From assembly GCA_029260825.1 (NCBI GenBank), contig JAJDCM010000132.1:1-64000 (forward strand): a stretch of DNA of 64,000 bases, given 5' to 3'. The stretch is from Planctomycetota bacterium. GTDB lineage: Bacteria > Planctomycetota > JACOTG01 > JAJDCM01. The notes below the pieces were generated by a model. The model worked only from the letters and a program-made list of their open reading frames with translations, did no database searches and was not told where the DNA came from. The position numbers and the translations under genes are program-made. This document shows, piece after piece, positions 49,629 through 64,000 of this stretch (the stretch's first letter is position 1; each line of letters opens with the position of its first letter).

Positions 49629-50698
49629 GTTCGTTGTTGATCGAGCAAGGTCAGCCAGGCGCCTCCATGCAACTCGAGCAGTTGCCGATCTTGCTCCGGT
49701 AGCACCGAGAGACTCGCTTCGCCACCATGCTTCTTCAAGCTTTGATGAACCCGACGAGCCACTCCTACTCCATACTCATCCTCCGCACCCACGAAGAGAT
49801 GTACCTGGATTTTTCGGCGAGCAAACTTGACGAGGTCGTCCTCACTCCATCCGGTCCAACCATAGGTTGAGGCGGTGGAAAGACTCTGCCAGTATTTTCC
49901 AGACATTCGAGAGTAAGTAAGAGCCGGACGCGCTCCACTCGCAAAACCGACCAGGTGAAACCTCCCACCCTCCACCTTGTATTTCCTCTTCAATCGATTC
50001 AACAACCCCTCCATGGCATGGTGAAAAGGATGGGTCCACCAGCCATCTTTCGGAGCGACCGGCACGATGACGATCCATCCCCGGTTCTTGGTTTCTCCTC
50101 CAAAAAGACTCTCCAACATCCAGTCCGCAGACCTCACCCCTTGACCGGGAGGAAAGGCAAAGGCCGCTGGATAGGTTTTCTTCCCGTCAAAGCCCTCGGG
50201 GAGTATCACGTGATATTGAAAGGATTTTCCGTTTCCCTTGTGCACATCGTACTCGTGTTTTCGGGGCATCGGAAAACTCTGCTTCCGTCGAACAGCATCG
50301 AGGTCAGAGTCGGTCTCGAGCAAGTCAAAGTCGAGAAAGCCGGCTTTCATGGCCCGATCAAGCGCCTCCAGCGCCTTGTCAACATCCCCCTTGAGACTGA
50401 GCGAGCAAGCGACATTATAGAGAGAGGTCGCCCGGATCTCGGGAAACTCGGCAGCCTTCTCTCCGGCCTCGATGGACCGGTCATAATTCTTGAGATAGTT
50501 GTGGGCCTGTGCGAGGTTAAACCAGGCGGCCCCGCTCGATGGATCTTCGGCCGTGATGGCCGAAAAGGCTTCAGCCGCCTTTTTCCAGTTTCCGGAACGC
50601 AAATAGCGTTGGCCCTGCTCAAGAGTTGGAGTCCCCCCTGCCAATGCAGGACCGAGTAGAGCCAATACCGAACAGAAGGCGAGTGTAAGCTTGCTCAT
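49619..50698 (-). CDS. Secreted TPR protein with esterase-like alpha/beta domain, nucleophile apparently replaced
   Basis: 359 aa, signal peptide to about residue 21. Residues 25-130 hold TPR units (GQRYLRSGNWKKAAEAFSAITAEDPSSGAAWFNLAQA). Residues about 145-350 follow the esterase D/PHB depolymerase-like fold: YHVILPEGFDGKKTYPAAFAFP, then the elbow FHLVGFASGARPAL, FVGAEDEYGV and LLELHGGAWL. In the elbow the usual G-x-S-x-G reads G-F-A-S-G, so Ala sits where the nucleophilic Ser is expected, while candidate Asp and His remain. It may be inactive or use the neighbouring Ser. The last residues TTD and the stop come from the AGTC repeat. Confidence 0.72.
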   Translation of the reverse strand: MSKLTLAFCSVLALLGPALAGGTPTLEQGQRYLRSGNWKKAAEAFSAITAEDPSSGAAWFNLAQAHNYLKNYDRSIEAGEKAAEFPEIRATSLYNVACSLSLKGDVDKALEALDRAMKAGFLDFDLLETDSDLDAVRRKQSFPMPRKHEYDVHKGNGKSFQYHVILPEGFDGKKTYPAAFAFPPGQGVRSADWMLESLFGGETKNRGWIVIVPVAPKDGWWTHPFHHAMEGLLNRLKRKYKVEGGRFHLVGFASGARPALTYSRMSGKYWQSLSTASTYGWTGWSEDDLVKFARRKIQVHLFVGAEDEYGVGVARRVHQSLKKHGGEASLSVLPEQDRQLLELHGGAWLTLLDQQRTTD

Positions 50699-50899
50699 GT
50701 TTTTCCCTCTTCATTTCTTTTCAATTCATCCAATGCAGTTTTTTTAGCACATCCACCCCGAAAGGAACAGACGGAAACCGCGGCATCGGAAGAAAATCTA
50801 CTCCCCCTGAAAGCCAGTTTGAACTAACCTATAAGCAGATGGGACTCCCTTGTCCGGAGCCAATGGAGGTTTTTTCGACATCATTGACGGAGGCTAACC

Positions 50900-51577
50900 A
50901 TGACTTCTTCCACCTGGATACTATCGATTCTCTTCTCGGTCTTCCTTCCCTTGAGCGCTACAGCTCCGCCTCAAGGAGAAGTCGCGGGAAAGCTCGAAGA
51001 GCTGACAACCAAGGCCAAAGAAGCCTATTCCAACGGGAAGCCCAAAGATGCAGTGAACTACCTTCAACAAGCCATCGGGGCGATCCAGGAAGAGGGTGTC
51101 CAGGGGCTAGCAACCTTCACACCGATCATCCCCAAGAACTGGAAAGCCGACGAGGCAAAAACAACGACAGGGATGTGGGGAGGAGTCGGTGGCACAGCGG
51201 CTAGCTCCTTTCAGTGGAGCAACGTTACCCGCAAGTACGTCCGTGAAAGTGACGGACTCAAGATGGACGTGACCATTTCGAACTGGCCCCAGATCATCAC
51301 CGCTCAGAGAGCTTCCATCCAGATGATCAAATCCAATCCCATGTTTGCTCAGATGATGAATCAAGACCCCAACAAGAAAATGACCATCATTGATCAAGAC
51401 GGCTGGATCGGAATGAGACAGATCCAGAAGGGGAGAAGGGCTGAAATCATGGTCATGGGAAAATCGACCATGGTCATGCTCAAGCTCTCCAAGGACGATG
51501 AAGCGGCTCTCGATCTCTTCTGGAAATCGATGAGACTCAAAGAACTGACGAAGCTGGACGCGTCGACCGACCAATAG
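50900..51577 (+). CDS. Small secreted protein, unknown function
   Basis: 225 aa with signal peptide (STWILSILFSVFLPLSATA). A short helical TPR-like start (KAKEAYSNGKPKDAVNYLQQAIGAI) is followed by a compact alpha/beta domain with W and M-rich stretches (FTPIIPKNWKADEAK, IIDQDGWIGMRQIQKGRRAEIMVMGKSTMVMLKL). No family recognised. GGAGG six bases before ATG. It precedes the large M9-like gene by 57 bases and may share its transcript. Confidence 0.6.
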   Translation: MTSSTWILSILFSVFLPLSATAPPQGEVAGKLEELTTKAKEAYSNGKPKDAVNYLQQAIGAIQEEGVQGLATFTPIIPKNWKADEAKTTTGMWGGVGGTAASSFQWSNVTRKYVRESDGLKMDVTISNWPQIITAQRASIQMIKSNPMFAQMMNQDPNKKMTIIDQDGWIGMRQIQKGRRAEIMVMGKSTMVMLKLSKDDEAALDLFWKSMRLKELTKLDASTDQ

Positions 51578-51634
51578 TCACCCGGATTCAAAACGGCCCC
51601 AGCACTCGTCAGCTGCCCTGAAGAAGGAACATCG

Positions 51635-54600
51635 ATGTCAAATTCGGCCCCGAGCATCGCGCTCCTCTTGCTCCTCGTATTCGCTTCAATTGTCACGGCG
51701 ACACAGCAAGAGCGAGCACCTGCAGGGCACCCCGCCCCGGACTCATCGCTTCCCTGCTGCAGTGCCGTCCCGGCTAACCGACGGGCCACAGTACCTCGAG
51801 TCCTGATGCGTGAACCGACGGTTTCTACTCTCGCCCCAACTCTCGGGCCCTGTTCGTCTTCTGATTTCGCTGCCCTGAGTGGTAATAACCTCGTGAATGC
51901 TATTGCCGGCGCCGGACCTTGCCTGGACGTCTTGTTCAGTTATGACACGGACGTACAGACGGTGATCGCGCCAGCCAACGCGACTCTCGTGGCAAACGCA
52001 ATCTCGTTGGAATCGGCAAACTTGACCGGCAACGCAACCAGGCTGAGGAACATGAGCTACTTCCTCCAGATCGGGTTCTTTCACGAGTTCTATGAGCCTT
52101 CCGTGACCTACGATGCCACGACGGTTTCAAATGCTCAGCAGGCCATGATTGATATCGCAGCAAGCGTGGACTTTCTGGACGAATCCCAGCCGGTAAAAGA
52201 CCTGCGACAGCAATGGATCATCAGCCTTGACAGCACCAACGGAACAGACCTGACTCTCCCGGCCGTTGAGGCCATTCTTTCCCGATACCGGAGCAACCCG
52301 GCTCACGCCATGTCGTTTCAAGAACGAGTCACCGCCTTCAATGCTTTCTTTACTCTGGGGCGCCAGATCAACAACAACTTCATTGCCCTTGGCACGGGAA
52401 GCCCTTGGTACTCCCTCATCAATCAGTCCCTTCACGATGTGATCGACGCCTACGCCCTCGACCTCACAACCGACAGTGACACCGAGCCGATCACGAACAA
52501 TGCGATCTTCGTTTTAGGTCACTTTTCATTTCTCGAGCCAGCTCGCGCGGCTGCCGGACACACATCGCTGACCAGCGCCTACCAGGCTCATCCTCAATAC
52601 CTGGGTCCCTGGCTTCGATCGGTCATCGACCTTGAACACTTCTACAACGGGGAACTCGACAACGGAACACCACTTCCTCTCGCTCAAATCCGGAGCGACG
52701 TTGCCGCGATCGCCCTTCCCAACACTTTCAGCTTCGATCAAGGTCGCTTGACGTTTCGCACGCCTCTTTCTCTGTCTGCGATTGAGGCCCAGTATGAAGC
52801 CATGAAAGAAGTTGGCAGTCAGTTCTTTCGCAAGTGTAGCTCTCTTGATCCAGTACCCGGCGATCTCAACGAATCTCTGACTCTGGTCATCTACGGAAGC
52901 CCGAGTGATTATCAGCTTTATCAACCGTTCTTGTACGGATACAACACGAACAATGGCGGCATCTTCATCGAGGGTGACGGAACGCTATTTACCTACGACC
53001 GAACCCCCCAGCAAAGCATCTATACCCTTGAAGAGCTTCTTCGCCATGAGTACGTACACTATCTCGACTCCCGATATCTGGTGACCGGCGGATTCTATGG
53101 CCCGGGAACCCTCTATCAGGGAGGACGACTTGACTGGTACTCCGAGGGGCTTGCAGAATTCCTGGTGGGGAGCACCCGGTCCCTGGGTGTGCTCCCTCGA
53201 GGAACCCTCCTCTCTCAGATCGAAGGGGACTCCTCACGGATGAGCGTTTCCCAGATCCTGTCGGCGACCTATTCCTCGGGTTTTGGTTTCTACCGCTACG
53301 CGGGCACGTTCTTCAAGTTCCTGGAAGAGGATGAGGCCGACCGCCTTGTCACTCTCTTTGAAGCGATCCTGGGGAACAACCTTGCAAACCTCGATGCTCT
53401 CTACGCGTCCTGGTCTGCCGATTCAGCCTTTCAGAATGCCTATGACACCTGGCTGACGAATCGGATCAACGACTACAACACCAGTAACGGTCCGTTTGCC
53501 GAGGATGTCCCAACAACCCCAACTCCGACGAACCTCCCCGAAAACAACTCTGAATTGATCCGGAGCGAACTACGGGACTCCCTTTCGGCATCCGGAGCCA
53601 GCACATTTTCGGTGTGGGCGGAACGGTTTCATTTCGAAGATGTGATCACGATTCCGACCCAGGGAGCAACCCCAGGCGCCCTCCGAGAAGTTTTCGACGA
53701 GACGATCATGGATGGTTTCGTGGATCAACTCGCGCCTCTCCTCATGAATTTCGAGTCAGCCGTTGCCTGGTGCGGCAACATCCAGGTTGTAGGGCAAAAC
53801 GCAACCGCTCGCTACACGATGGAAGGCCCGTTCAATCCCACTCCGGCGGATCAAACTCCCCCCGCATCCCCCGTAGGTCTTGTCGTAACCGATTCTACTG
53901 GTGTCGCCGACCTTCAATGGCATCCGAATGACGAAGCCGACCTGACCGGCTACAACGTCTATCGGTCGACAAGCTACGACGGCCTTTACTCCCTCCTGAA
54001 CGGCAACGTCGTTTCGCCGACTTCTTATCACGATGGAACCGCCATCCCGGACCAATACTATGCGGTCGCCGCCGTTGATGCTTCTGGCAACGAGTCTCCT
54101 CTTTCGATACAAATTCAGGGTGGCGCCTCGGGTAGGATCCTTCTGGTCGATGGCCACTCCACCCAGAGAGGCTCTTACTTCAATGCCTATTCCTCCGAGC
54201 TTGATCAGCGCAACATCGCCTATGATCGATGGATCCCGGCGATCGATGGAGAACCCACCGCCGCCGTCCTCTCGCCCTACACGCAGGGAATTGTCATCTG
54301 GTCCGTGGGCTATTATGTACCGTCGGATCCGCTTCAACTCAGCCCCGGACGTCAGGCGGCAATCGAAGACTATCTCGACAACGGAGGGAACCTGATCTTC
54401 TCCGGGGCCTACATGGCATCCAACCTCGACCAGACGAGCCTCTTCACCGATTACTTCCACGCTCAACACGTACGCTTCAATGTTGATCTTCCGGAGCTCC
54501 TCGAAGTTCCGGGAAGCCCACTCGGCCTGGGACTTGGCGCCACCATGTCGACGACTTTGTATGAGAGCGAAATTGACCTGAATGCTCCGGCTCAGTCCGC

Positions 54601-55084
54601 TCTCACGTATGATCCAACCTCTGGAGCTGGAATGATTGACTCCAGCGGAACCGCAGTTTTTACCGTTGACGATGGCTACCGGGTCGTCTACTTCGGTTTC
54701 CCCTTCGCCGACCTCACTCAAGAAAGTCGCTCCGATCTCATGGATGGCATCCTCGACTGGATGGTTCCCACCCAACCCCGAGTAGAAATGTTTCCCGGCA
54801 TCGCAGGTGAGCTCAACGAGTTTGCGGTCTACAACGCAAAGCCAGGGGAGCGGATCTTCTTCCTCGCGGGCATCCAACCTGCCAACCTATCCACTCCCTG
54901 CTCGGGGACGTTCCTTGGCATCGATCCGGTACGAATCCTCGCTCGAAAAAACGCAGACGCAAGCGGATTCGCATCCCTCTCTTTTCCCATCGGTGGCGGA
55001 CGGTCCGGATTGACCATCCTCATTCAGGCGGCGATTGTTCCCTCCTGTGAGCTCACCGATGTGCTGCAGTTGACTCTCGAATAG
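51635..55084 (+). CDS. Large secreted M9 collagenase-like metalloprotease with Fn3 and C-terminal domains
   Basis: 1149 aa, signal peptide to about residue 27. Residues about 70-370 are helical, resembling the activator domain of Vibrio/Clostridium collagenases. The catalytic part has EELLRHEYVHYLDSRYL (zinc HEXXH near 475) and LDWYSEGLAEFLVGS, where Glu is the third ligand as in M9. A fibronectin III domain (about 745-830, PASPVGLVVTDSTGVADLQW...YNVYRSTS) and a Rossmann-like segment (RILLVDGHS...) follow. The last about 100 residues (PGIAGELNEFAVYNAKPGERIFFLAG) are a cysteine-paired beta domain. Probably extracellular and protein-degrading; collagen activity is not shown. Confidence 0.75.
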   Translation: MSNSAPSIALLLLLVFASIVTATQQERAPAGHPAPDSSLPCCSAVPANRRATVPRVLMREPTVSTLAPTLGPCSSSDFAALSGNNLVNAIAGAGPCLDVLFSYDTDVQTVIAPANATLVANAISLESANLTGNATRLRNMSYFLQIGFFHEFYEPSVTYDATTVSNAQQAMIDIAASVDFLDESQPVKDLRQQWIISLDSTNGTDLTLPAVEAILSRYRSNPAHAMSFQERVTAFNAFFTLGRQINNNFIALGTGSPWYSLINQSLHDVIDAYALDLTTDSDTEPITNNAIFVLGHFSFLEPARAAAGHTSLTSAYQAHPQYLGPWLRSVIDLEHFYNGELDNGTPLPLAQIRSDVAAIALPNTFSFDQGRLTFRTPLSLSAIEAQYEAMKEVGSQFFRKCSSLDPVPGDLNESLTLVIYGSPSDYQLYQPFLYGYNTNNGGIFIEGDGTLFTYDRTPQQSIYTLEELLRHEYVHYLDSRYLVTGGFYGPGTLYQGGRLDWYSEGLAEFLVGSTRSLGVLPRGTLLSQIEGDSSRMSVSQILSATYSSGFGFYRYAGTFFKFLEEDEADRLVTLFEAILGNNLANLDALYASWSADSAFQNAYDTWLTNRINDYNTSNGPFAEDVPTTPTPTNLPENNSELIRSELRDSLSASGASTFSVWAERFHFEDVITIPTQGATPGALREVFDETIMDGFVDQLAPLLMNFESAVAWCGNIQVVGQNATARYTMEGPFNPTPADQTPPASPVGLVVTDSTGVADLQWHPNDEADLTGYNVYRSTSYDGLYSLLNGNVVSPTSYHDGTAIPDQYYAVAAVDASGNESPLSIQIQGGASGRILLVDGHSTQRGSYFNAYSSELDQRNIAYDRWIPAIDGEPTAAVLSPYTQGIVIWSVGYYVPSDPLQLSPGRQAAIEDYLDNGGNLIFSGAYMASNLDQTSLFTDYFHAQHVRFNVDLPELLEVPGSPLGLGLGATMSTTLYESEIDLNAPAQSALTYDPTSGAGMIDSSGTAVFTVDDGYRVVYFGFPFADLTQESRSDLMDGILDWMVPTQPRVEMFPGIAGELNEFAVYNAKPGERIFFLAGIQPANLSTPCSGTFLGIDPVRILARKNADASGFASLSFPIGGGRSGLTILIQAAIVPSCELTDVLQLTLE

Positions 55085-55165
55085 ATCGCTTTGATACGAA
55101 AAGGAAAAGCGGCAAAGACCCGCAGGGCCTCCGCCGCCATTTTGGTCTTCGGTGAAGCCGAAAGC

Positions 55166-56029
55166 CTATTCGCCCGTAACCAATCTTCCCTTCAATACCC
55201 AGTACAGGTATCTCCTTTTTCCTCCCCCATCGACCCGGCCCCCGAAAACCGTCACCTTGCCTTCCCCGAGGAACGCTGAGAATTGACCGGTGCTTCCACT
55301 ACGTGGCGGAGGAAGTGATTTCTGCGACTCCCCGTCAAAAGAAGAGATGTTGTACCGAGTATCAACCCGGATCAACTTTGCCCCCACCTGGCTCGCGGTC
55401 AGAACCAGGTCGACGTTTGCCTCCGCATAGCCGCCGAGACTGCTTTGGGTGACTCCGCTGCTCATCGTCGTCGTTGAGAAGGGAGCCTCCCGACGGCTTG
55501 TGAATTCCATCGCCTTCCCAAGAACCATGGAATAGGAAAGATCGACAAGATGCACCACACCCTTTTCCCTGATGGACAGCAGTCTTTCCGCCAGCTCTTT
55601 CTCTCCCGCCTCTCCCTGAATATCCGCTGGACTGGGAATTCCCAGCCTGGTCACGGCGGCGGCCTCGACTTCAAAGACCCCCACATCGACCCGAGCAAGA
55701 GTCGGAATCTGCTTCCTTTCTTTCGCCTTCTGGATGGGAACACCCAACGTAACATCGAGAAGTTTCACCACCTCGATCGCCCGATCGACTCCCTCCCTCC
55801 CCACGACAAAGACAGAGTTCGTCTTTTCATCCGGCACGAATTTCACGGTTCGTACCAGTTGCTTCACGAGCTTGACAACATCGGAAGCCTGGCTGTGCCC
55901 CAGCTCCACTCTTTGAAACCTCTCTTCTGGCCTCTCGGCTCGACCAGCTTCCTTGCATTCGCCTCCCGTCGCGGCACAGAAACTCACAACGCCGATTACC
56001 ACTGCACGTAAAACTATCTGCCGGATCAT
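55166..56029 (-). CDS. Secreted secretin-N-like domain protein
   Basis: 287 aa from ATG 56029 (AGGAG seven bases upstream; the adjacent ATG 56032 is also possible). Signal peptide to about residue 20. Residues about 35-110 (RVELGHSQASDVVKLVKQLVRTVKFVPDEKTNSVFVVGREGVDRAIEVVKLLD) match the secretin N-domain/GspD N1-N2 pattern of beta-alpha-beta with NSV.V.G. The rest includes strands that could form part of a secretin, but at under 300 residues it lacks the full secretin core and has no pilus or type II genes nearby. Perhaps a truncated or specialised secretin relative. Confidence 0.6.
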   Translation of the reverse strand: MIRQIVLRAVVIGVVSFCAATGGECKEAGRAERPEERFQRVELGHSQASDVVKLVKQLVRTVKFVPDEKTNSVFVVGREGVDRAIEVVKLLDVTLGVPIQKAKERKQIPTLARVDVGVFEVEAAAVTRLGIPSPADIQGEAGEKELAERLLSIREKGVVHLVDLSYSMVLGKAMEFTSRREAPFSTTTMSSGVTQSSLGGYAEANVDLVLTASQVGAKLIRVDTRYNISSFDGESQKSLPPPRSGSTGQFSAFLGEGKVTVFGGRVDGGGKRRYLYWVLKGRLVTGE

Positions 56030-56280
56030 CATTCGTCTCCTTCGGTCAAAGCACTTTTGGATCAGGGATGGGTCCAAACAACGACCAATAGACGGCTTTC
56101 GGCGTCCGGTATTCCCATTTCTTGGAATTTTCGGGTCCTCCGACTCTCGTGTGGGTAAGTTCAATGAACCTGCAACGAAACGAAACATCTCGAGGGTTGA
56201 ACACACGAGAATGGGGATGATCCGTGGAGTTGAGTATTGTCGCCGCCAGCAATAAACGAACAAAAGAGGTACCTTTTCCC

Positions 56281-57660
56281 ATGACCAAAAAATACGACGC
56301 CATTGTCATTGGAACCGGCCAGGCCGGCCCCTCCCTTGCCGGTAGCCTTGCTGGCGCCGGAAAGAACGTCGCCATCATCGAACGCAAACGATTCGGCGGA
56401 ACTTGCGTCAACAACGGATGCATTCCAACAAAAGCTCTCGTTGCAAGTGCACGAGCAGCGCATGTGGCCAGAACAGCCGAGGACTTCGGTGTCCTCCTCG
56501 ACGGCGACGTCCGAGTAGACATGAAAAAGGTAAAGGCGAGAAAAGACGCTATCGTGCGCAATTCCACCACCGGGGTGGAAAAATGGCTGAAAGGAATGGA
56601 CCGATGCACTGTCTATGAAGGACATGGGAAATTTGTAGGGCCCCGTACTGTTCAAGTCGGTGACGATGTACTCGAGGCCGAGCAGATCTTCATCAACGTT
56701 GGCGGCCGGGCGACGCGCCCCTCCATTCCCGGGCTTGATTCCGTCGACTATCTCACCAACGCGGAAATGATGGAGGTCGACGAAGTGCCCCAGCATCTGA
56801 TCGTTCTGGGTGGCAGCTACATCGGCCTTGAATTTGCTCAGATGTTCCGTCGCTTCGGCAGCAAAGTCACCGTGATACAGCGAGGAGATCGAGTCCTTTC
56901 CCGGGAAGACGAGGATGTCTCGAATGCAGTTCAGCAAATTCTCGAAGGCGAGGGCATTGAAGTACTCACCAGCACTTCGGATTATGTTGTTGAAAAACGC
57001 GATGACCAGATCGCCTTCAAGATGACTTGCGCAGGTGCTTCAAGAGAGATTCTCGGGTCTCACCTTTTCATCGGCGTGGGACGCACTCCCAACACGAGCG
57101 ATCTTGGTCTCTCTGCAGCCGGCATCGAAATCGACGCGAAGGGATTTGTCAAAGTTGATGATCAGCTCCGCACCAGCGTCGAAGGAGTCTGGGCTCTGGG
57201 GGACTGCAACGGCCAGGGAGCCTTCACTCACACGTCCTATAACGATTACGAAATCGTCGCCGCCAACTTACTTCACAACGACCCAAGGCGGGTGAGTGAC
57301 CGGATCACAACCTATGGAGTCTTCATCGATCCGCCCCTTGGACGGGCTGGCATGACCGAAAGAGAGGTCCGCAAATCGGGGCGTCCCGCACTCATGGCTA
57401 CCCGGCCCATGAAACGGGTAGGGCGAGCCGTTGAAAAAGGAGAGACCCAAGGCTTCATGAAGATTCTCGTTGATGCCGAATCCAAGAAAATTCTTGGAGC
57501 CTCCCTCCTCGGCATCGAGGGAGACGAAGCGATCCACTCCATTCTCGACGTGATGTACGCCAAGGCACCATACACGGTGATTCAGAGAGCCATGCACATT
57601 CATCCTACGGTCTCAGAGCTGATCCCAACATTGCTTGGCGACCTCAAGCCTCTGAAATGA
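56281..57660 (+). CDS. FAD-dependent pyridine nucleotide-disulfide oxidoreductase (mercuric reductase-like)
   Basis: 459 aa from ATG 56281; the frame opens at 56224 without support. FAD Rossmann start YDAIVIGTGQAGPSLAGSLAGAGKNVAIIE, redox-active dithiol GGTCVNNGCIPTKAL (Cys near 42 and 47), NAD(P)-binding LIVLGGSYIGLEFAQMFRRFGSKVTVI, second FAD motif GVWALGDCNGQGAFTH, and C-terminal HIHPTVSELIPTL with the His-Glu pair. Intact class I reductase. No lipoyl partner or N-terminal HMA domain, so the substrate may be a small disulfide or metal. The deiodinase-like gene follows 92 bases later on the same strand, so it could supply or recycle reductant, which is inference. Confidence 0.9.
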   Translation: MTKKYDAIVIGTGQAGPSLAGSLAGAGKNVAIIERKRFGGTCVNNGCIPTKALVASARAAHVARTAEDFGVLLDGDVRVDMKKVKARKDAIVRNSTTGVEKWLKGMDRCTVYEGHGKFVGPRTVQVGDDVLEAEQIFINVGGRATRPSIPGLDSVDYLTNAEMMEVDEVPQHLIVLGGSYIGLEFAQMFRRFGSKVTVIQRGDRVLSREDEDVSNAVQQILEGEGIEVLTSTSDYVVEKRDDQIAFKMTCAGASREILGSHLFIGVGRTPNTSDLGLSAAGIEIDAKGFVKVDDQLRTSVEGVWALGDCNGQGAFTHTSYNDYEIVAANLLHNDPRRVSDRITTYGVFIDPPLGRAGMTEREVRKSGRPALMATRPMKRVGRAVEKGETQGFMKILVDAESKKILGASLLGIEGDEAIHSILDVMYAKAPYTVIQRAMHIHPTVSELIPTLLGDLKPLK

Positions 57661-57752
57661 AGACGAGCACCTTCTCCCCAAAACAATGTGTCTGCGCTAT
57701 CCTTAAACTGTCCGTAGTCTATTTTGAAAACCCCTTCGCCAAAGGAAGATCG

Positions 57753-58604
57753 ATGAGGAAACAAAAAAGAGCCCTTCCCTTCCTATGCATCCTGCTCCTG
57801 ACAGGATGCACATCTCTGGAAAGCAAATCCCACCTCGATGCTACCGCCGACACGAGTCCAATCCATCCGGAGAAAACCACGACCGCGAAGCATGAGCCTG
57901 GCGTCCGAAGCGACGAGGATCAGATTCGCAAGTCCCTGACAAAGATGGATCACTACGACGACCGGACAATTCCCGAGGCCAAGATGAAGGGGCTCATCGA
58001 CGATGGACTTTACGATCCCGAGAACGAACACTCCCTCAATGTCGGTGATGAAGCGCCCGACTTCGCACTGATGCCATTGCGGTTTTATGACTTCCGACTG
58101 GCACCGGGATCCATCAACAAAGAGAACGCAGGAACTCTCTTCGAACCGGTGAAGCTCAGTTCCTTTCGCGGCAACAAATCCGTCGTGTTGATTTTCGGAA
58201 GCTACACGTGACCTCCCTTCCGGGACCAGGCTGGTTCCCTCGAAGAAATGGCCAAGACTTACGAAAATGAAGCTCAGTTCCTCATTGTTTACATCAAAGA
58301 AGCTCATCCCTCGGATGACTGGGCAAGCAGGGTCAATTCCAAGATCTCCTACATCAAGGATCCAACCTCCTACTTTGAGCGAGCCCAGGTCGCCAACACA
58401 TGCATGGCACAGCTCGAAATCAATCTTCCGTGTCTCGTTGACAACATGGAAAATCAGACGGCCCGGGCCTACCGTGCCTGGCCTGATCGCCTCTTCGTCG
58501 TAGACAAAGACGGTAAACTTTCATACGTGGGGAAGCCCGGCCCCTTCGGCTTCCTTCCACGGGAAATGGAAGAGGTCCTGAAGAACGAAGTTGGGTCGCC
58601 CTGA
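57753..58604 (+). CDS. Predicted selenoprotein: iodothyronine-deiodinase-family lipoprotein with in-frame TGA
   Basis: 283 aa reading TGA (58209-58211) as selenocysteine 153. ATG 57753 has GGAAG five bases upstream; lipobox LLTGCTS gives Cys19. The thioredoxin-like domain begins VGDEAPDFALMPL, and the core motif is VLIFGSYT-U-PPF, where animal deiodinases have NFGSxTU-PxF. Reading continues in the same frame, with no other stop, into YIKEAHPSDDW, MENQTARAYRAWPDRLFVVDKDG and YVGKPGPFGF, all counterparts of deiodinase landmarks (EEAH.SDGW, AWPERLY, GGPGPYGY). A SECIS-like hairpin follows the TGA. Read without selenocysteine it would be two fragments, 153 and 118 residues. Iodine chemistry is not implied, since bacterial members may be general thiol/selenol reductases. 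Confidence 0.85.
58217..58245 (+). promoter_or_regulatory. Candidate bacterial SECIS element after the in-frame TGA
   Basis: Hairpin beginning 6 bases past the TGA: outer CTTC (58217-58220) with GAAG (58242-58245), small internal loop, then GGGACC (58222-58227) with GGTTCCC (58233-58239) containing one bulged T, and loop AGGCT (58228-58232). The loop lies at positions 20-24 counting the T of TGA as 1. In the E. coli fdhF element a bulged U and an AGGUCU loop sit at about 17-26. It resembles a SelB target, though the bulge is on the opposite arm. Confidence 0.6.
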
Positions 58605-58641
58605 CTTGATTCTTGAATCATGCGGGGGTTCAGGATGAAAA

Positions 58642-58675
58642 AAGCGCCTCGGGTGAATCACCACTCGAGGCGCTT
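58642..58675 (-). terminator. Intrinsic terminator, minus-strand direction
   Basis: A 14-bp stem with one G-T wobble (58642-58655 with 58662-58675) encloses AATCAC. The A-run at 58638-58643 becomes a T-tract on the minus strand, so it ends the Cys-rich gene. It also lies 38 bases past the stop of the selenoprotein gene and may protect that transcript end. Confidence 0.8.
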
Positions 58676-58726
58676 CTCTTACTGACTGAATCGTGGATGG
58701 ATGAACGCTAGAGATCCCACTGATCT

Positions 58727-59317
58727 CTAGACCTTGGTCATCTTCCCATTCTTGAAGGCAACCTTGCACCCGTCGCACTTGCCATTGGTCACGATGCCAA
58801 CCGCACAATCTTCACAATTCGCGGATGCCTTGATGGCCATTTCGAGCATTTCTGCTGCCTTCAAAGCATGTGCGTGATGTTTCTCGCTCTTGAACGCGAG
58901 GTTGCCCACGAACTGAACTTTGCAACCTTCACATTTTCCATTGCTCTTGGCTGCCTCTTTGCAGCCGCCACACTTCATATGATCGGCGGGAATCGCATGG
59001 CCAAGAGCCAACGCCTGAGCGACCGGCGAGCGATAGGCCTTTCCCTTCGCGAAATGGACCTTACATCCATGACAGGAGGAGTTCTTTGCCAACGCCTTTT
59101 CACATCCGCCGCATTCGATTTTCTTGCCTTCGACCTTCTTGCCGGCAAGAGCCTTGTGCAGTTTGGCTGATTTGATCTGTTGACCGGCGAAATAGGCGGT
59201 TCCACAGCAAGCGCCGTTTTCCGCCTTTGCCTTCATGCAGCAATCCCCCGCTTCCGCAGAAGTGCTAAAACCAAAAACCAGCGTAAGTGCCATCCCAACA
59301 AAAAGTAGTGTTCTCAT
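58727..59317 (-). CDS. Secreted 16-cysteine protein with four C-x2-C-x9-C-x2-C repeats
   Basis: 196 aa from ATG 59317; an ATG at 59338 has no ribosome site. Signal peptide ends STSAEAG. Four repeats of about 45-50 residues follow. Three read CGGCEKALAKNSSCHGCK, CGGCKEAAKSNGKCEGCK and CEDCAVGIVTNGKCDGCK, each C-x2-C-x9-C-x2-C followed by V-x-F. The first is CC-x9-CC. Lys-rich and His-containing linkers join them. No CxxCH haem site occurs. The pattern suits four Cys4 metal-binding (zinc-ribbon-like) units outside the cytosol. I do not recognise the family. It converges on the selenoprotein gene with a terminator between. Confidence 0.7.
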   Translation of the reverse strand: MRTLLFVGMALTLVFGFSTSAEAGDCCMKAKAENGACCGTAYFAGQQIKSAKLHKALAGKKVEGKKIECGGCEKALAKNSSCHGCKVHFAKGKAYRSPVAQALALGHAIPADHMKCGGCKEAAKSNGKCEGCKVQFVGNLAFKSEKHHAHALKAAEMLEMAIKASANCEDCAVGIVTNGKCDGCKVAFKNGKMTKV

Positions 59318-59589
59318 CGTGCCTGATCCTTCCTTCATGAAATTGCGGGGCTAGAGACAGTACGCCTCCGAGCCCAAAATGACGGGTCTAGAATCGGCTA
59401 AGTGTGAAAAAAACTGCACTCGGGATGCGCCGGGTGACAGAGCGACTCCCTCATCACTCTCTCGCCCATAGGCCAGGAGATCATAGCGAGGATCGATGAC
59501 CAGAGATGGCCCGGCACTCCCTGGTACCTCGATCGAAACTTGTCATCGTCGATGAATCCCGGGCTCGATGGAATCAGGCCCCTCCACCA

Positions 59590-60738
59590 TCACTGATCCG
59601 ACCCCACAGTAAGCCCCGCCGATTCCGGGAGTCGGGCAAGAACCCCCCAACCTCCAAAGCTCTCTGTAACCGCAAACAAGAGTTCGTTTGAACCAGAACG
59701 CAAAGGAAGATGAAGCCGGTCAAAATGACCGATCGTCCCGAGAAATCGGTAGTCGCGGGACCGATAAGAATTATCCCCCGAGTAGATCAACCGATCATTG
59801 AGGAATACCCGGACCTTATCACTGTATCCAAAGACAAGCTCCTGGATCTTTTCCGTTTCAGCCGAAAGGACGACTCGAGCAAAGACCGTGTCCCGACCGT
59901 CAACAAGCCCCTGAATCCGGGACAGATTGAAGAGTCCGGTCGCTTCGGAGGTAAGTGGTGTCCAGCCACGGCTCGGCTTGTCATCGGAATCAAGCATCGT
60001 CTTCCCCGCTAACATCGACTCCGAAAAGGCCCGGGACACTTGAACGCGCTGCACCGTTTCAGAGCCCGGGGACGGGAACTTCTTCGCCTTCCCTCTCAGT
60101 TCCGGTTTTTCTACCAGCTGATACTTGAAGTTGGAAAAGTGAGCTGATGCGAACCCACCCCCAACACTGAGTCCGATTTTTCCAGGGCGCGGCTTTCTCT
60201 TCAGCTCATGAATAACCACGGCAGGCGCGACGGAATCGTTGATGAACGCCTCAGCTCTCGATCCTGAAACAACGATTCGCACAGCCATCCATTGATTGCT
60301 GGTGTAATCGACAGGAGCGCCGTAGCCATCTCCATGATACAGCTGCCAGGAAGCCACTCCGTTGAAAACCGGAGTGTACTGATTTGCGTCCGGCATTCCT
60401 GATTGGTGAGGGCGAAGATAGAAATGTTCATAGTTTGCGCCATCTTCGACTCGAAAAACCGCGCCCACAAATCCACGGGCTCCGGTAAACGCAATATCGA
60501 ACTCGATGATGCCATCAAGAAATTCTACATCCTCGATCAAGACCGACCCGGCCTGCAGGTGAATCGCAGGACGGCCCAGATGCTCCTCGATCTGGAAACG
60601 ACCGCCCTCCATTTGCCATCGAGGGGAATCGAAGGGAATGATCCCTACCGCCTCCGAGGCGTTTGCCCCGCTTGCAGTCAGCAAAAAAAGAGTGATTCCA
60701 CAGAGAATCCGAAAACAGGAGAAGCGATCAGCGTTCAT
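59590..60738 (-). CDS. Secreted lectin-like (concanavalin/LamG-like) protein, two beta domains
   Basis: 382 aa from ATG 60738 with GAGG six bases upstream; the longer frame to 60837 is unsupported. Signal ends SGANASE. Residues about 30-200 form a jelly-roll typical of 3-keto-disaccharide hydrolase/DUF1080 and LamG proteins: IIEFDIAFTGARGFVGAVFRVEDG, YEHFYLRPHQSG, WMAVRIVVSGSRAEAFIND, KIGLSVGGGFASAHFSNFKY. A second beta domain (about 230-382) contains FARVVLSAETEKIQELVFGYSDKVRVFLNDRLIYSG and ELLFAVTESFGGWGV, like glycoside-hydrolase accessory sandwiches. Probably a glycan-binding exported protein; no catalytic acid pair is evident. Confidence 0.65.
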   Translation of the reverse strand: MNADRFSCFRILCGITLFLLTASGANASEAVGIIPFDSPRWQMEGGRFQIEEHLGRPAIHLQAGSVLIEDVEFLDGIIEFDIAFTGARGFVGAVFRVEDGANYEHFYLRPHQSGMPDANQYTPVFNGVASWQLYHGDGYGAPVDYTSNQWMAVRIVVSGSRAEAFINDSVAPAVVIHELKRKPRPGKIGLSVGGGFASAHFSNFKYQLVEKPELRGKAKKFPSPGSETVQRVQVSRAFSESMLAGKTMLDSDDKPSRGWTPLTSEATGLFNLSRIQGLVDGRDTVFARVVLSAETEKIQELVFGYSDKVRVFLNDRLIYSGDNSYRSRDYRFLGTIGHFDRLHLPLRSGSNELLFAVTESFGGWGVLARLPESAGLTVGSDQ

Positions 60739-60982
60739 GGATATCCTCATTAAAGGTGACGAAGGGCCTGAAGAATAATACGGCTCAGGTGTGGGTGGGT
60801 TAGCCCCGAGATGTCGGGAAGGAATTATTTTGCTCAAAGGAGCTAAAGCTCGAGCGAACCACCCGGGTTAGCAACGGCCATACGAAGCAAGAGGACACAA
60901 AAAGAGAGGTTTTCCCTCCTCCTCCTCTCCCCTCGTCGCCGATAGGTACGAGGTATAGAATAGCCACGGAGCCCGATCGGAC

Positions 60983-61639
60983 ATGCCCAGGAAGTCGATA
61001 TCTTACGAACAGATGGACGGCTTTGGATCACCCTCCGTGCAAGGCTCCTCCGGGAGCGGCATCTTCTCAACCCTTCTCGCAGATGCCTCCTCGTGGTGCC
61101 ACGGAAGGACCTGGTGGTTTCGCCTTCCCCTCTGGGCCTATCTCACCTACGTTTTCTTCTCACACTCTTTTGCCTCCGGAGAGTATGAGAGCATATTTGG
61201 AGGCATCAACCTGGGCATCCATGAACTTGGACACGGTCTGTTTCGTCCCGGCGGCGAGTTCCTCATGTACGCCGGAGGAACAATCGCCCAGTGCCTGGCC
61301 CCCATCATCGCCGGATTCATGTTCCTGAAACAGAGAGACTATTTCGGACTCACAGTTTCCTGGTGCTGGCTGGCAACCAACTTCTGGAACATCTCCTCCT
61401 ATGCCGGCGATGCCCGAGCTCTCCGCTTGACCCTTGTCGCTCCAGGGACCGGGGTGATCCCCCCGGGAGAAGGGGCCTCGATGCACGACTGGCGGTACAT
61501 GCTGGGCCAGCTCGGGATTCTACCCTGGGACAAAACCATCGCGGGCTTCTTCGAATGGGCAGCGGCCGGGATGATGGTTTTCGCTCTCTCGCTGGGAGCC
61601 TGGCTCATGTGGAATATGGCCACGTCCCCCAAGAAATGA
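60983..61639 (+). CDS. Small multi-pass membrane protein with HELGH motif (M50-like)
   Basis: 218 aa with four or five hydrophobic helices. In the second helix region, FGGINLGIHELGHGLFRPGGEFL carries HEXXH, the zinc site of membrane-embedded M50-type proteases. NFWNISSYAGDARAL later may contain the distal Asp ligand (in M50, an LDG/NxxPxxxLDG segment). It is shorter than site-2 proteases and has no PDZ domain; it is closest in look to the M50B-like family. Function unproved. Start at ATG 60983 with a weak, distant GGAG. Confidence 0.55.
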   Translation: MPRKSISYEQMDGFGSPSVQGSSGSGIFSTLLADASSWCHGRTWWFRLPLWAYLTYVFFSHSFASGEYESIFGGINLGIHELGHGLFRPGGEFLMYAGGTIAQCLAPIIAGFMFLKQRDYFGLTVSWCWLATNFWNISSYAGDARALRLTLVAPGTGVIPPGEGASMHDWRYMLGQLGILPWDKTIAGFFEWAAAGMMVFALSLGAWLMWNMATSPKK

Positions 61640-61806
61640 CCACCAGCGAAGTCCCTTCATCCCCACCCCTCCTCGGCTCCCTACCGATATCTTCCCAACG
61701 GCTGTTCCAGCTTGCGGTTTCGCCAGAACCCGACTAGACTGGTCTCACTCAATGTAGGCCCAATTCAACGATCAAAGCCCTCGTAAGTCGATAGGGAGAG
61801 CGCCGG

Positions 61807-62214
61807 ATGAACGAAGAGTCCCAGAACAAAATCTCCAAGCCCGTTGATTCGTCCGGTTCAACGATGGTCATCAAGGCAGATTGGATACCGTCCTTTAAAC
61901 TGCCCAGCAGCGAGGCGCCTCAACTTCAAGTCGAGGTGGTTGGCGGCCCGATGGATGGATCGCGACGAAGAATTAACAAACGAATCATCACCATCGGTCG
62001 AGCCAAAGACACCGATTTTGCCCTTCCCCTCGACCTCATGGTCTCCAATCGACACGCGTCCATCACCCGAGAGGGAGAGCAATACTGGCTGGAAGACCTC
62101 AAAAGCAGTAACGGCACTTACCTCAGTGACAAACAGATTCACGGACGTGTCCTGATCGGACCCGGCACCATCTTTCTCGTGGGTCAAACCTACGTGGAAT
62201 TCATGCCTCAATAA
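61807..62214 (+). CDS. FHA-domain phosphothreonine-binding protein
   Basis: 135 aa, cytosolic. After about 40 disordered residues comes a single forkhead-associated domain: RRINKRIITIGRAKDTDFALPLDLMVSNRHASITREGEQYWLEDLKSSNGTYLSDKQI. The GR, S..H and NGT residues that contact phosphothreonine are all present. Likely reads out Ser/Thr kinase signalling such as that of the kinase at 41879-44527. GGGAG ribosome site. The Clp ATPase gene follows 52 bases later, suggesting they work together. Confidence 0.9.
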   Translation: MNEESQNKISKPVDSSGSTMVIKADWIPSFKLPSSEAPQLQVEVVGGPMDGSRRRINKRIITIGRAKDTDFALPLDLMVSNRHASITREGEQYWLEDLKSSNGTYLSDKQIHGRVLIGPGTIFLVGQTYVEFMPQ

Positions 62215-62266
62215 GAAGCCGAAGAGACCAGGCCCGTACGAACTACCCATCAACAGGATCTACAGA

Positions 62267-64000
62267 ATGAATCTACCACGATTGTCCAAGGCGACCTTCG
62301 AGGTTATTGCCGCGGCGGGAAAGCTCAGCAATGAGTCCGGACATCACTTCTTGGGAGTCGAGCACCTCTTCGTGGAACTCGCTCGAGATCCATCCAGCAC
62401 CCTGGCGAAGACCCTCTCCAAATACACGATCGATCAGGCGATTATCAGCTCCATGCTCCCTGCCAAAGTTGACGAACAGGGAACAAGGGCCTGGGGTGAA
62501 GAGCTCATCTACACCCCTCGCTCTCACAAAGTTCTTCAACTGGCCGGGAAAATCGCCGGGCAAAAAGATCAGGGGAACGTGGAGCCACGCCACGTGGTTG
62601 AGGCCATTTTTCGGGAAGGTCGAAGCGTACCCCTGCGCGTCCTTCGGGCCAAAGGTGTGGACCCGGTCGGCATTCAGGTCGAGCTCGATGACACTCCCGA
62701 GCCAACGGAAAACCCGACCCCGTACCTCGATCGATTCGGTCGAGACATCACCGCCCTTGCTCGATCAGGTTCCCTCACTCCGGTCATCGGGAGGAAAAAA
62801 GAGATCAATCTCCTCTCCCAGGTCCTCCTCCGGAAGAACAAGAACAATCCGGTCCTGACCGGCGATGCGGGAGTCGGCAAGACCGCGGTGGTAGAAGGAT
62901 TCGCCCAGTCTCTGGTTGACCCGGCGTGCCCCGAGCCTCTCCGAAAATGTCGAATTGTCGAGTTATCGATCACCAGCATCGTGGCCGGAACGAAGTTTCG
63001 GGGAGAATTCGAAGAACGAATGGTGAACATCAAGGACGAAGCAAGCAGCGACCCCAACATCATCTTGTTCCTGGATGAACTTCACACCATCGTCGGAGCG
63101 GGCTCCACCGGCACCGATTCCCTTGATGTCTCCAACATCCTGAAGCCGGAACTGGCAAGAGGAACCCTCCGCTGCATCGGCGCAACAACCATCAGTGAGT
63201 ACCGCAAGACGATCGAGCGGGATGCCGCCCTGGATCGCCGCTTCGAGAAGATCCTGGTCGAGGAACCAAATCGAGCGGATGCACTACAAATCCTCCAGGG
63301 AGTCTCGACGTCGCTGGAGGTTCATCATCAGGTCAAGATCAATCCGGATGCCATCGAAGCGGCTCTGGATCTGACCGTCCGCCACCTCCCGGATCGCCGT
63401 CTTCCCGACAAGGCAATCGATGCGCTGGATCAGTCCTGCGCACGGCGAAGGCTCCAGACACTGTGCTCTCCTGAATCCGATACCGAATGCTCCACGAATC
63501 CTCTGCCCATCGAGGCAAAAGATGTTACTCGCACCGTTTCCCAGTGGACCGGCATTCCTCTCGAGCGATTGACAAGCGACGCCAAAGACGCCCTGCTGAA
63601 CGTTGAGGCCGAGCTGCAAAAGCTTGTGGTCGGTCAGGACGAGGCTGTATCGGCGGTATCCAGAGCGATCGTCACCGCTCGCGCCGGTCTTGCCGCCCCC
63701 AATCGACCCATCGGGGTGTTTCTCTTCATGGGCCCGACGGGGGTAGGCAAGACAGAACTGGCGCGGAGTCTGGCCAAGGTGCTTTTTTCCGACGAAAAAC
63801 GACTGGTACGGTTCGACTGCTCCGAGTTCTCCGAACCTCACGGAATTGCCAAGCTGATCGGGGCGCCCCCCGGATACGTGGGGTATGAGGAAGAAGGACT
63901 GCTGATCAGCGCCCTTCGCACTCATCCTCACTCGATCGTTCTGTTTGACGAGATCGAGAAGGCTCATCCCCAGCTCTTCGATCTCTTTCTTCAGATCTTC
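62267..64000 (+). CDS. ClpA/ClpC-like AAA+ ATPase subunit, cut by the window end
   Basis: 578 codons seen; it starts at ATG 62267 with AGGA eight bases upstream and runs off the end without a stop. The N-domain (about 1-150) has ESGHHFLGVEHLFVELARD and PRHVVEAIF. AAA1: GDAGVGKTA (Walker A), ILFLDELHTIVGAG (Walker B), CIGATTISEYRK, DAALDRRFEKI. AAA2: FMGPTGVGKTELARSL, APPGYVGYEEEG, VLFDEIEKAHP. Between the AAA1 end (DKAIDALDQSCARR) and TVSQWTGIPLERL there are only about 30 residues, so the long coiled M-domain of ClpB/ClpV is absent, favouring ClpA-type. It unfolds substrates for a protease or remodelling partner. The adjacent FHA protein may be a client adaptor. Confidence 0.9.
   Translation, partial: MNLPRLSKATFEVIAAAGKLSNESGHHFLGVEHLFVELARDPSSTLAKTLSKYTIDQAIISSMLPAKVDEQGTRAWGEELIYTPRSHKVLQLAGKIAGQKDQGNVEPRHVVEAIFREGRSVPLRVLRAKGVDPVGIQVELDDTPEPTENPTPYLDRFGRDITALARSGSLTPVIGRKKEINLLSQVLLRKNKNNPVLTGDAGVGKTAVVEGFAQSLVDPACPEPLRKCRIVELSITSIVAGTKFRGEFEERMVNIKDEASSDPNIILFLDELHTIVGAGSTGTDSLDVSNILKPELARGTLRCIGATTISEYRKTIERDAALDRRFEKILVEEPNRADALQILQGVSTSLEVHHQVKINPDAIEAALDLTVRHLPDRRLPDKAIDALDQSCARRRLQTLCSPESDTECSTNPLPIEAKDVTRTVSQWTGIPLERLTSDAKDALLNVEAELQKLVVGQDEAVSAVSRAIVTARAGLAAPNRPIGVFLFMGPTGVGKTELARSLAKVLFSDEKRLVRFDCSEFSEPHGIAKLIGAPPGYVGYEEEGLLISALRTHPHSIVLFDEIEKAHPQLFDLFLQIF

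Follow-up and report, generated by a model that had tools for sequence, protein, structure and literature searches.

A deiodinase-like selenoprotein gene with an in-frame UGA codon in a Planctomycetota genome

The window analyzed here, a stretch of 64,000 nucleotides from a Planctomycetota bacterium, contains two open reading frames (57657–58211 and 58248–58604) which, as a sequence-only reading of the region had described, lie in one frame and are split only by a TGA codon at 58209–58211. The locus raises the question of whether this codon is read as selenocysteine (Sec) within a single gene or is a nonsense mutation in a broken one, and, in the former case, what kind of enzyme the gene may encode. 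On the evidence set out below, we regard it as close to certain that the gene at 57753–58604 codes for a T4_deiodinase-family selenoprotein in which UGA 58209–58211 specifies residue Sec153.

Bacterial deiodinase-like selenoproteins have been known since 2005, when Zhang, Fomenko and Gladyshev (PMC1088965) noted Sec and Cys forms and suggested a redox function. They were counted again in the GOS survey of 2008 (PMC2398784), where the table gives no motif, and two later reviews give the motif as UxxC (PMC9312934, PMC13188914). Selenoproteins of Planctomycetes were reported in 2016 (PMC4807772), with deiodinase absent from the main text of that paper. The gene studied here resembles the family of the 2005 and 2008 papers in its PF00837 domain, its in-frame UGA with a bacterial SECIS, and its Cys homologues. 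This gene is a well-supported new member of that family. Of the earlier description as a deiodinase-family bacterial selenoprotein, the family and the Sec residue stand, and any claim to a new class does not. What appears newly described, within the literature searched, is the occurrence of five divergent paralogs in one genome, fusions to EF-hands, and an active site combining UPPF with Cys217; neither five copies per genome nor N-terminal EF-hand fusions were found there.

Gene structure, family and fold

The gene (57753–58604, forward strand) comprises 283 residues with Sec at position 153, and terminates at TGA 58602–58604, which is the sole other in-frame TGA; no further internal stop occurs. 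ATG 57753 is a better candidate for the start than 57657, because a Shine-Dalgarno-like AGGAAG lies ahead of it (57743–57748, forward strand) and because the nearest relative of full length, L093 (56% identity over 282 positions), can be aligned with the product from residue 1 onward and likewise has a lipobox there. The read-through product contains LIFGSYT-U-PPFRDQ, followed by EAHPSDDW, AWPDRLFVV, and GKPGPFGF, the same landmarks that had been picked out previously. The GC content by codon position is about equal on the two sides of the TGA (0.55/0.40/0.65 before and 0.59/0.38/0.64 after), and coding therefore continues past it. A standard gene caller splits such a UGA-recoded gene into two truncated genes.

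The N-terminus is positively charged and carries a hydrophobic stretch and a lipobox with its Cys (MRKQKRALPFLCILLLTG-C, by motif only). The lipobox (LTG-C, 57798–57809, forward strand) has a predicted lipidated Cys19 with Thr at +2; L093 and L094, the relatives nearest to this protein, have a lipobox as well. The earlier proposal of a lipoprotein accordingly holds by motif (LLLTG-C, Cys19), and the product is probably a lipoprotein with a peroxiredoxin/thioredoxin-like fold.

The assignment to PF00837 (T4_deiodinase), also made earlier, is borne out by a profile match with an E value of 3.2e-30 and 105.6 bits, against a curated Pfam cut-off of 27. The NCBIfam model NF038285 ("deiodinase family protein") matched with an E value of 1.3e-49 and 169.5 bits, under its 250-bit cut-off, with the overlap at residues 131–276 covering only the C-terminal part of the 347-position model. 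Among proteins of solved structure, the only sequence matches in the PDB were mouse DIO3 (4tr3, E 8e-20) and DIO2 (9h48, E 4e-18). An AlphaFold model of the protein, built on 60 homologues, showed pLDDT values mostly above 90 in the domain, and a Foldseek search with this model placed DIO2 (9h48) first and DIO3 (4tr3) second, with ResA-like proteins and the 1-Cys peroxiredoxin AhpE below the deiodinases, and the lipoprotein thioredoxin Etrx2 also among the matches. We use "deiodinase" here as a name for the apparent fold and ancestry, not for activity.

Decoding of the UGA codon

Genome-wide statements for the source genome (8.4 Mb, 425 contigs, about 90% complete) rest on profile searches. 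The four components whose presence had been proposed as a check, selA, selB, selD, and tRNA-Sec, were all found: a tRNA-Sec(UCA) scoring 71.5 bits adjoins selA, and selB and selD scored 373 and 371 bits, respectively. UGA 58209–58211 is almost certainly decoded as Sec153 by this SelA/SelB/SelD/tRNA-Sec set. The selD gene (L019, contig C142) carries an in-frame TGA of its own and is probably itself a selenoprotein gene. The same genome contains five PF00837 genes, the highest number among 149 Planctomycetota genomes, each with exactly one in-frame TGA in the context FGS-[YWH]-T-U-PPFR. The five paralogs fall at five separate positions in a tree with 140 relatives and form no cluster; five subfamilies that diverged long ago have therefore retained the same TGA.

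Relatives were drawn from the 149 Planctomycetota genomes (the source genome and its relatives) and from a species-level genome collection. A single-protein query of the genome contigs found no relative, and an alignment query then matched more than 580 places in the species-level collection. Following the removal of duplicates, 144 distinct domains were left. The Sec column held U in 133, C in nine, Ala in one, and a gap in one; the homologue check suggested earlier thus gave U or C with two exceptions, and no TGA was seen at any other column of the 144 domains. Since TGA recurs at one column in 133 of 144 domains and nowhere else in them, chance is excluded as the origin of the codon; the sequence-only reading had called a random nonsense mutation at this point unlikely. 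At least nine phyla are represented by name: Planctomycetota, Verrucomicrobiota, Acidobacteriota, Myxococcota, Binatota, Armatimonadota, Chloroflexota, Gemmatimonadota, and Poribacteria. In a deltaproteobacterial locus (L095), a second deiodinase-like domain has Ala at the Sec position (FGSSASVL); this domain lies near a Sec form and is perhaps an inactive paralog.

A nonsense mutation, or a sequencing error, in an ordinary Cys gene would account for a frame which, without recoding, is interrupted. Given the TGA at the same column in 133 of the 144 relatives, the four other paralogs that carry this TGA in the source genome, the full Sec machinery, and the conserved coding after the TGA, we rejected this explanation and attach practically no credence to it.

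The distribution of tRNA-Sec among the 149 genomes bears on the same question. We set the cut for a true tRNA-Sec ourselves, at best scores of at least 58 bits, with the remainder at about 54 bits or less; in the source genome, matches of the tRNA-Sec model at about 54 bits or less were tRNA-Ser and tRNA-Leu. The family is frequent in Planctomycetota, with a TGA copy in 47 of the 149 genomes, and tRNA-Sec was found in 44 of these 47 compared to 58 of the 102 in which no TGA copy occurs (Fisher p 3e-6). Three genomes, G048, G086, and G138, have a full-length copy of the Cys form, and all three are without a true tRNA-Sec. A true match was also absent from three genomes with a TGA copy (G031, G060, and G130), the last of which is only 82% complete.

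Downstream of the TGA, we noted a SECIS-like hairpin (GGGACCA-GGC-TGGTTCC, 7 bp; 58222–58238, forward strand), the loop of which starts 18 nt past the TGA with G as its first base. The hairpin is retained in L093, and the majority of 65 Sec genes have a similar one, the loop being as a rule GGTC, GGGC, or GGC. The tests were made at family scale, by codon-preserving and arm-shuffling procedures, folding of the whole region being negative for the gene itself (86 nt around and after the TGA, not better than shuffles, z +0.71). Against synonymous-codon shuffles, the stem score gave a mean z of 2.4 in the 65 Sec genes, 0.12 at 260 control places, and 0.6 in four Cys genes. Arm covariation, measured by swapping arms between genes, reached z 5.9 at the best register, with a median of about 0 over all registers. 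For the hairpin of this gene alone, 9 of 300 synonymous shuffles were as good, a modest result, and a search of Rfam at 50000–64000 returned no match. Taken at family scale, the hairpin at 58222–58238 is probably the SECIS of Sec153.

Active site compared with animal deiodinases

Residue roles established in the animal deiodinases (PMC11592359) were used to map the active site. The motif S150-Y-T152-U153-P-P-F156 (58200–58220, forward strand) and the residues Y180, E183, and H185 (58290–58307, forward strand), counterparts of the proton-relay residues Tyr197, Glu200, and His202 of DIO3, show that the Ser/Thr/Tyr/Glu/His relay around the Sec is kept in the alignment to DIO2 and DIO3. The protein further shares with mouse DIO3 and DIO2 the fold, the PPF following the Sec, the EAHPSD-W loop, and the residues Trp190 (Trp207 in DIO3) and R246 (Arg226 in DIO2). 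In contrast, three residues of DIO3 are all replaced by Pro: His219, the second relay His, by P204; Phe258, tied to the thyronine-accommodating change, by P244; and Arg275, tied to the carboxylate clamp, by P262, the last two by alignment (roles from PMC11592359). The second His of loop D is accordingly lacking, with His at this column in 7 of the 144 relatives, and P244 does not vary among the 60 aligned sequences. Because of these three Pro residues, deiodination of thyronines by the protein is unlikely.

The protein also differs from the animal enzymes in its predicted lipoprotein anchor, in place of a transmembrane helix, and in its Cys residues. The proximal Cys of the animal deiodinases corresponds to Tyr151. 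Cys227 (58431–58433, forward strand) falls in the column of the "distal Cys" of mouse DIO2 (Cys205) and is found in 22 of the 144 relatives. Cys217 (58401–58403, forward strand), located in helix 207–220 of the AlphaFold model, is present in 115 of the 144 relatives and absent in mouse DIO2 and DIO3. A regular-expression count had hinted that Cys217 marks Sec forms only, which a proper alignment did not support (110 of 133 Sec forms and five of nine Cys forms, p 0.07). Since its tie to the Sec is not strict, Cys217 is only a candidate for the resolving Cys.

The motif itself is UPPF or UGPF in this gene and nearly all of the 144 relatives, unlike the UxxC given in the two reviews and in agreement with the 2008 table and the animal enzymes. 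At the +3 position after the Sec, F156 stands in the protein, Phe or Tyr in 139 of the 144 domains, and Cys in one. This column bears on a reading as a ResA/TlpA-like periplasmic thiol-disulfide reductase with Sec in place of the attacking Cys, for which the Foldseek ranking of ResA-type proteins just under the deiodinases, together with the match to Etrx2, would speak. Set against the UPPF/UGPF motif with no Cys at +3, and against proton-relay and loop-D residues that are deiodinase-specific, we consider such a reductase improbable.

Proposed function, EF-hand fusions and genomic surroundings

The presence of Cys217 suggests a cycle of Sec/Cys peroxidase or thiol-redox type. Since the relay is kept, the thyronine-site residues are replaced, and Cys217 is present, we prefer a Sec/Cys peroxidase or thiol-redox enzyme, anchored by lipid in the periplasm, to a true deiodinase. 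As a specific assignment, a Sec153/Cys217-type peroxidase or thiol-redox function is tentative, with a likelihood that we place slightly short of even; the explanation as a whole, a selenoprotein that is a putative lipoprotein redox enzyme, we hold to be very probable.

The rival reading as a true reductive dehalogenase, in which the Sec would strip I or Br from halogenated phenolics as in the animal deiodinases, draws on mouse DIO3 (E 8e-20) and DIO2 being the best solved relatives and on the conserved relay, Trp190, and R246. The Pro replacements described above, including the invariant P244 and the scarcity of His at the His219 column, stand against it, as does the point made by Zhang et al. 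(PMC1088965) that bacteria with these proteins would not be expected to contain thyroid hormones. We judge this reading unlikely, to much the same degree as the ResA/TlpA-like one.

For the peroxidase or thiol-redox enzyme that we favour, the following course can be proposed. The acylated lipoprotein, with its peroxiredoxin/thioredoxin-like fold, would face the periplasm or the outer membrane, and the S150/T152/Y180/E183/H185 relay would activate Sec153 for attack on a substrate that is oxidized or electrophilic, the likeliest being a hydroperoxide or an oxidant related to it. Sec153 would then form a selenenylsulfide with Cys217, to be reduced by periplasmic thiol donors. In peroxiredoxins of the Tpx/PrxQ type, the resolving Cys lies in a later helix, to which the Cys217 helix presumably corresponds. 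The protein is like AhpE, Tpx, and PrxQ in its peroxiredoxin-like fold (AhpE by Foldseek) and in having a possible resolving Cys in a helix further along the chain; it is unlike them in its deiodinase-specific insertion and Sec active site, and its peroxidase activity is only a prediction. The residue map (relay kept, thyronine pocket lost, Cys217 new) makes peroxidase versus dehalogenase directly testable and bears on the origin of the animal thyroid-hormone enzymes. In a broader and more doubtful scenario, the UPPF/UGPF proteins with Cys217 would be ancient extracytoplasmic Sec/Cys peroxidases of many phyla, some of them Ca-responsive via EF-hands, and the animal deiodinases would descend from within them, having lost Cys217 and acquired the thyronine pocket.

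The EF-hands were found as N-terminal domains scoring above Pfam cut-offs in all 11 proteins chosen for an EF-like motif, namely L023 and L024 (both paralogs in the source genome), L027, L050, L064, L067, L068, L077, L103, L112, and L115; by a crude motif count, an EF-like motif occurs in 39 of 149 loci. L023 (G000, contig C55) also has a C-terminal extension of ~370 residues without a Pfam match.

Just upstream of the selenoprotein gene lies a gene for an FAD-containing oxidoreductase of the PRK06370 type (56281–57660, forward strand; MerA/RclA-like, CxxxxC). An operon of the two was considered and rejected, as no flanking gene recurs beside the relatives, save for one weak match at L039 (29% identity). 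On the opposite strand, 58727–59338 encodes a Cys-rich, secreted-looking protein without a Pfam match, which has repeated Cys-x-x-Cys-Lys motifs and is convergent with the selenoprotein gene.
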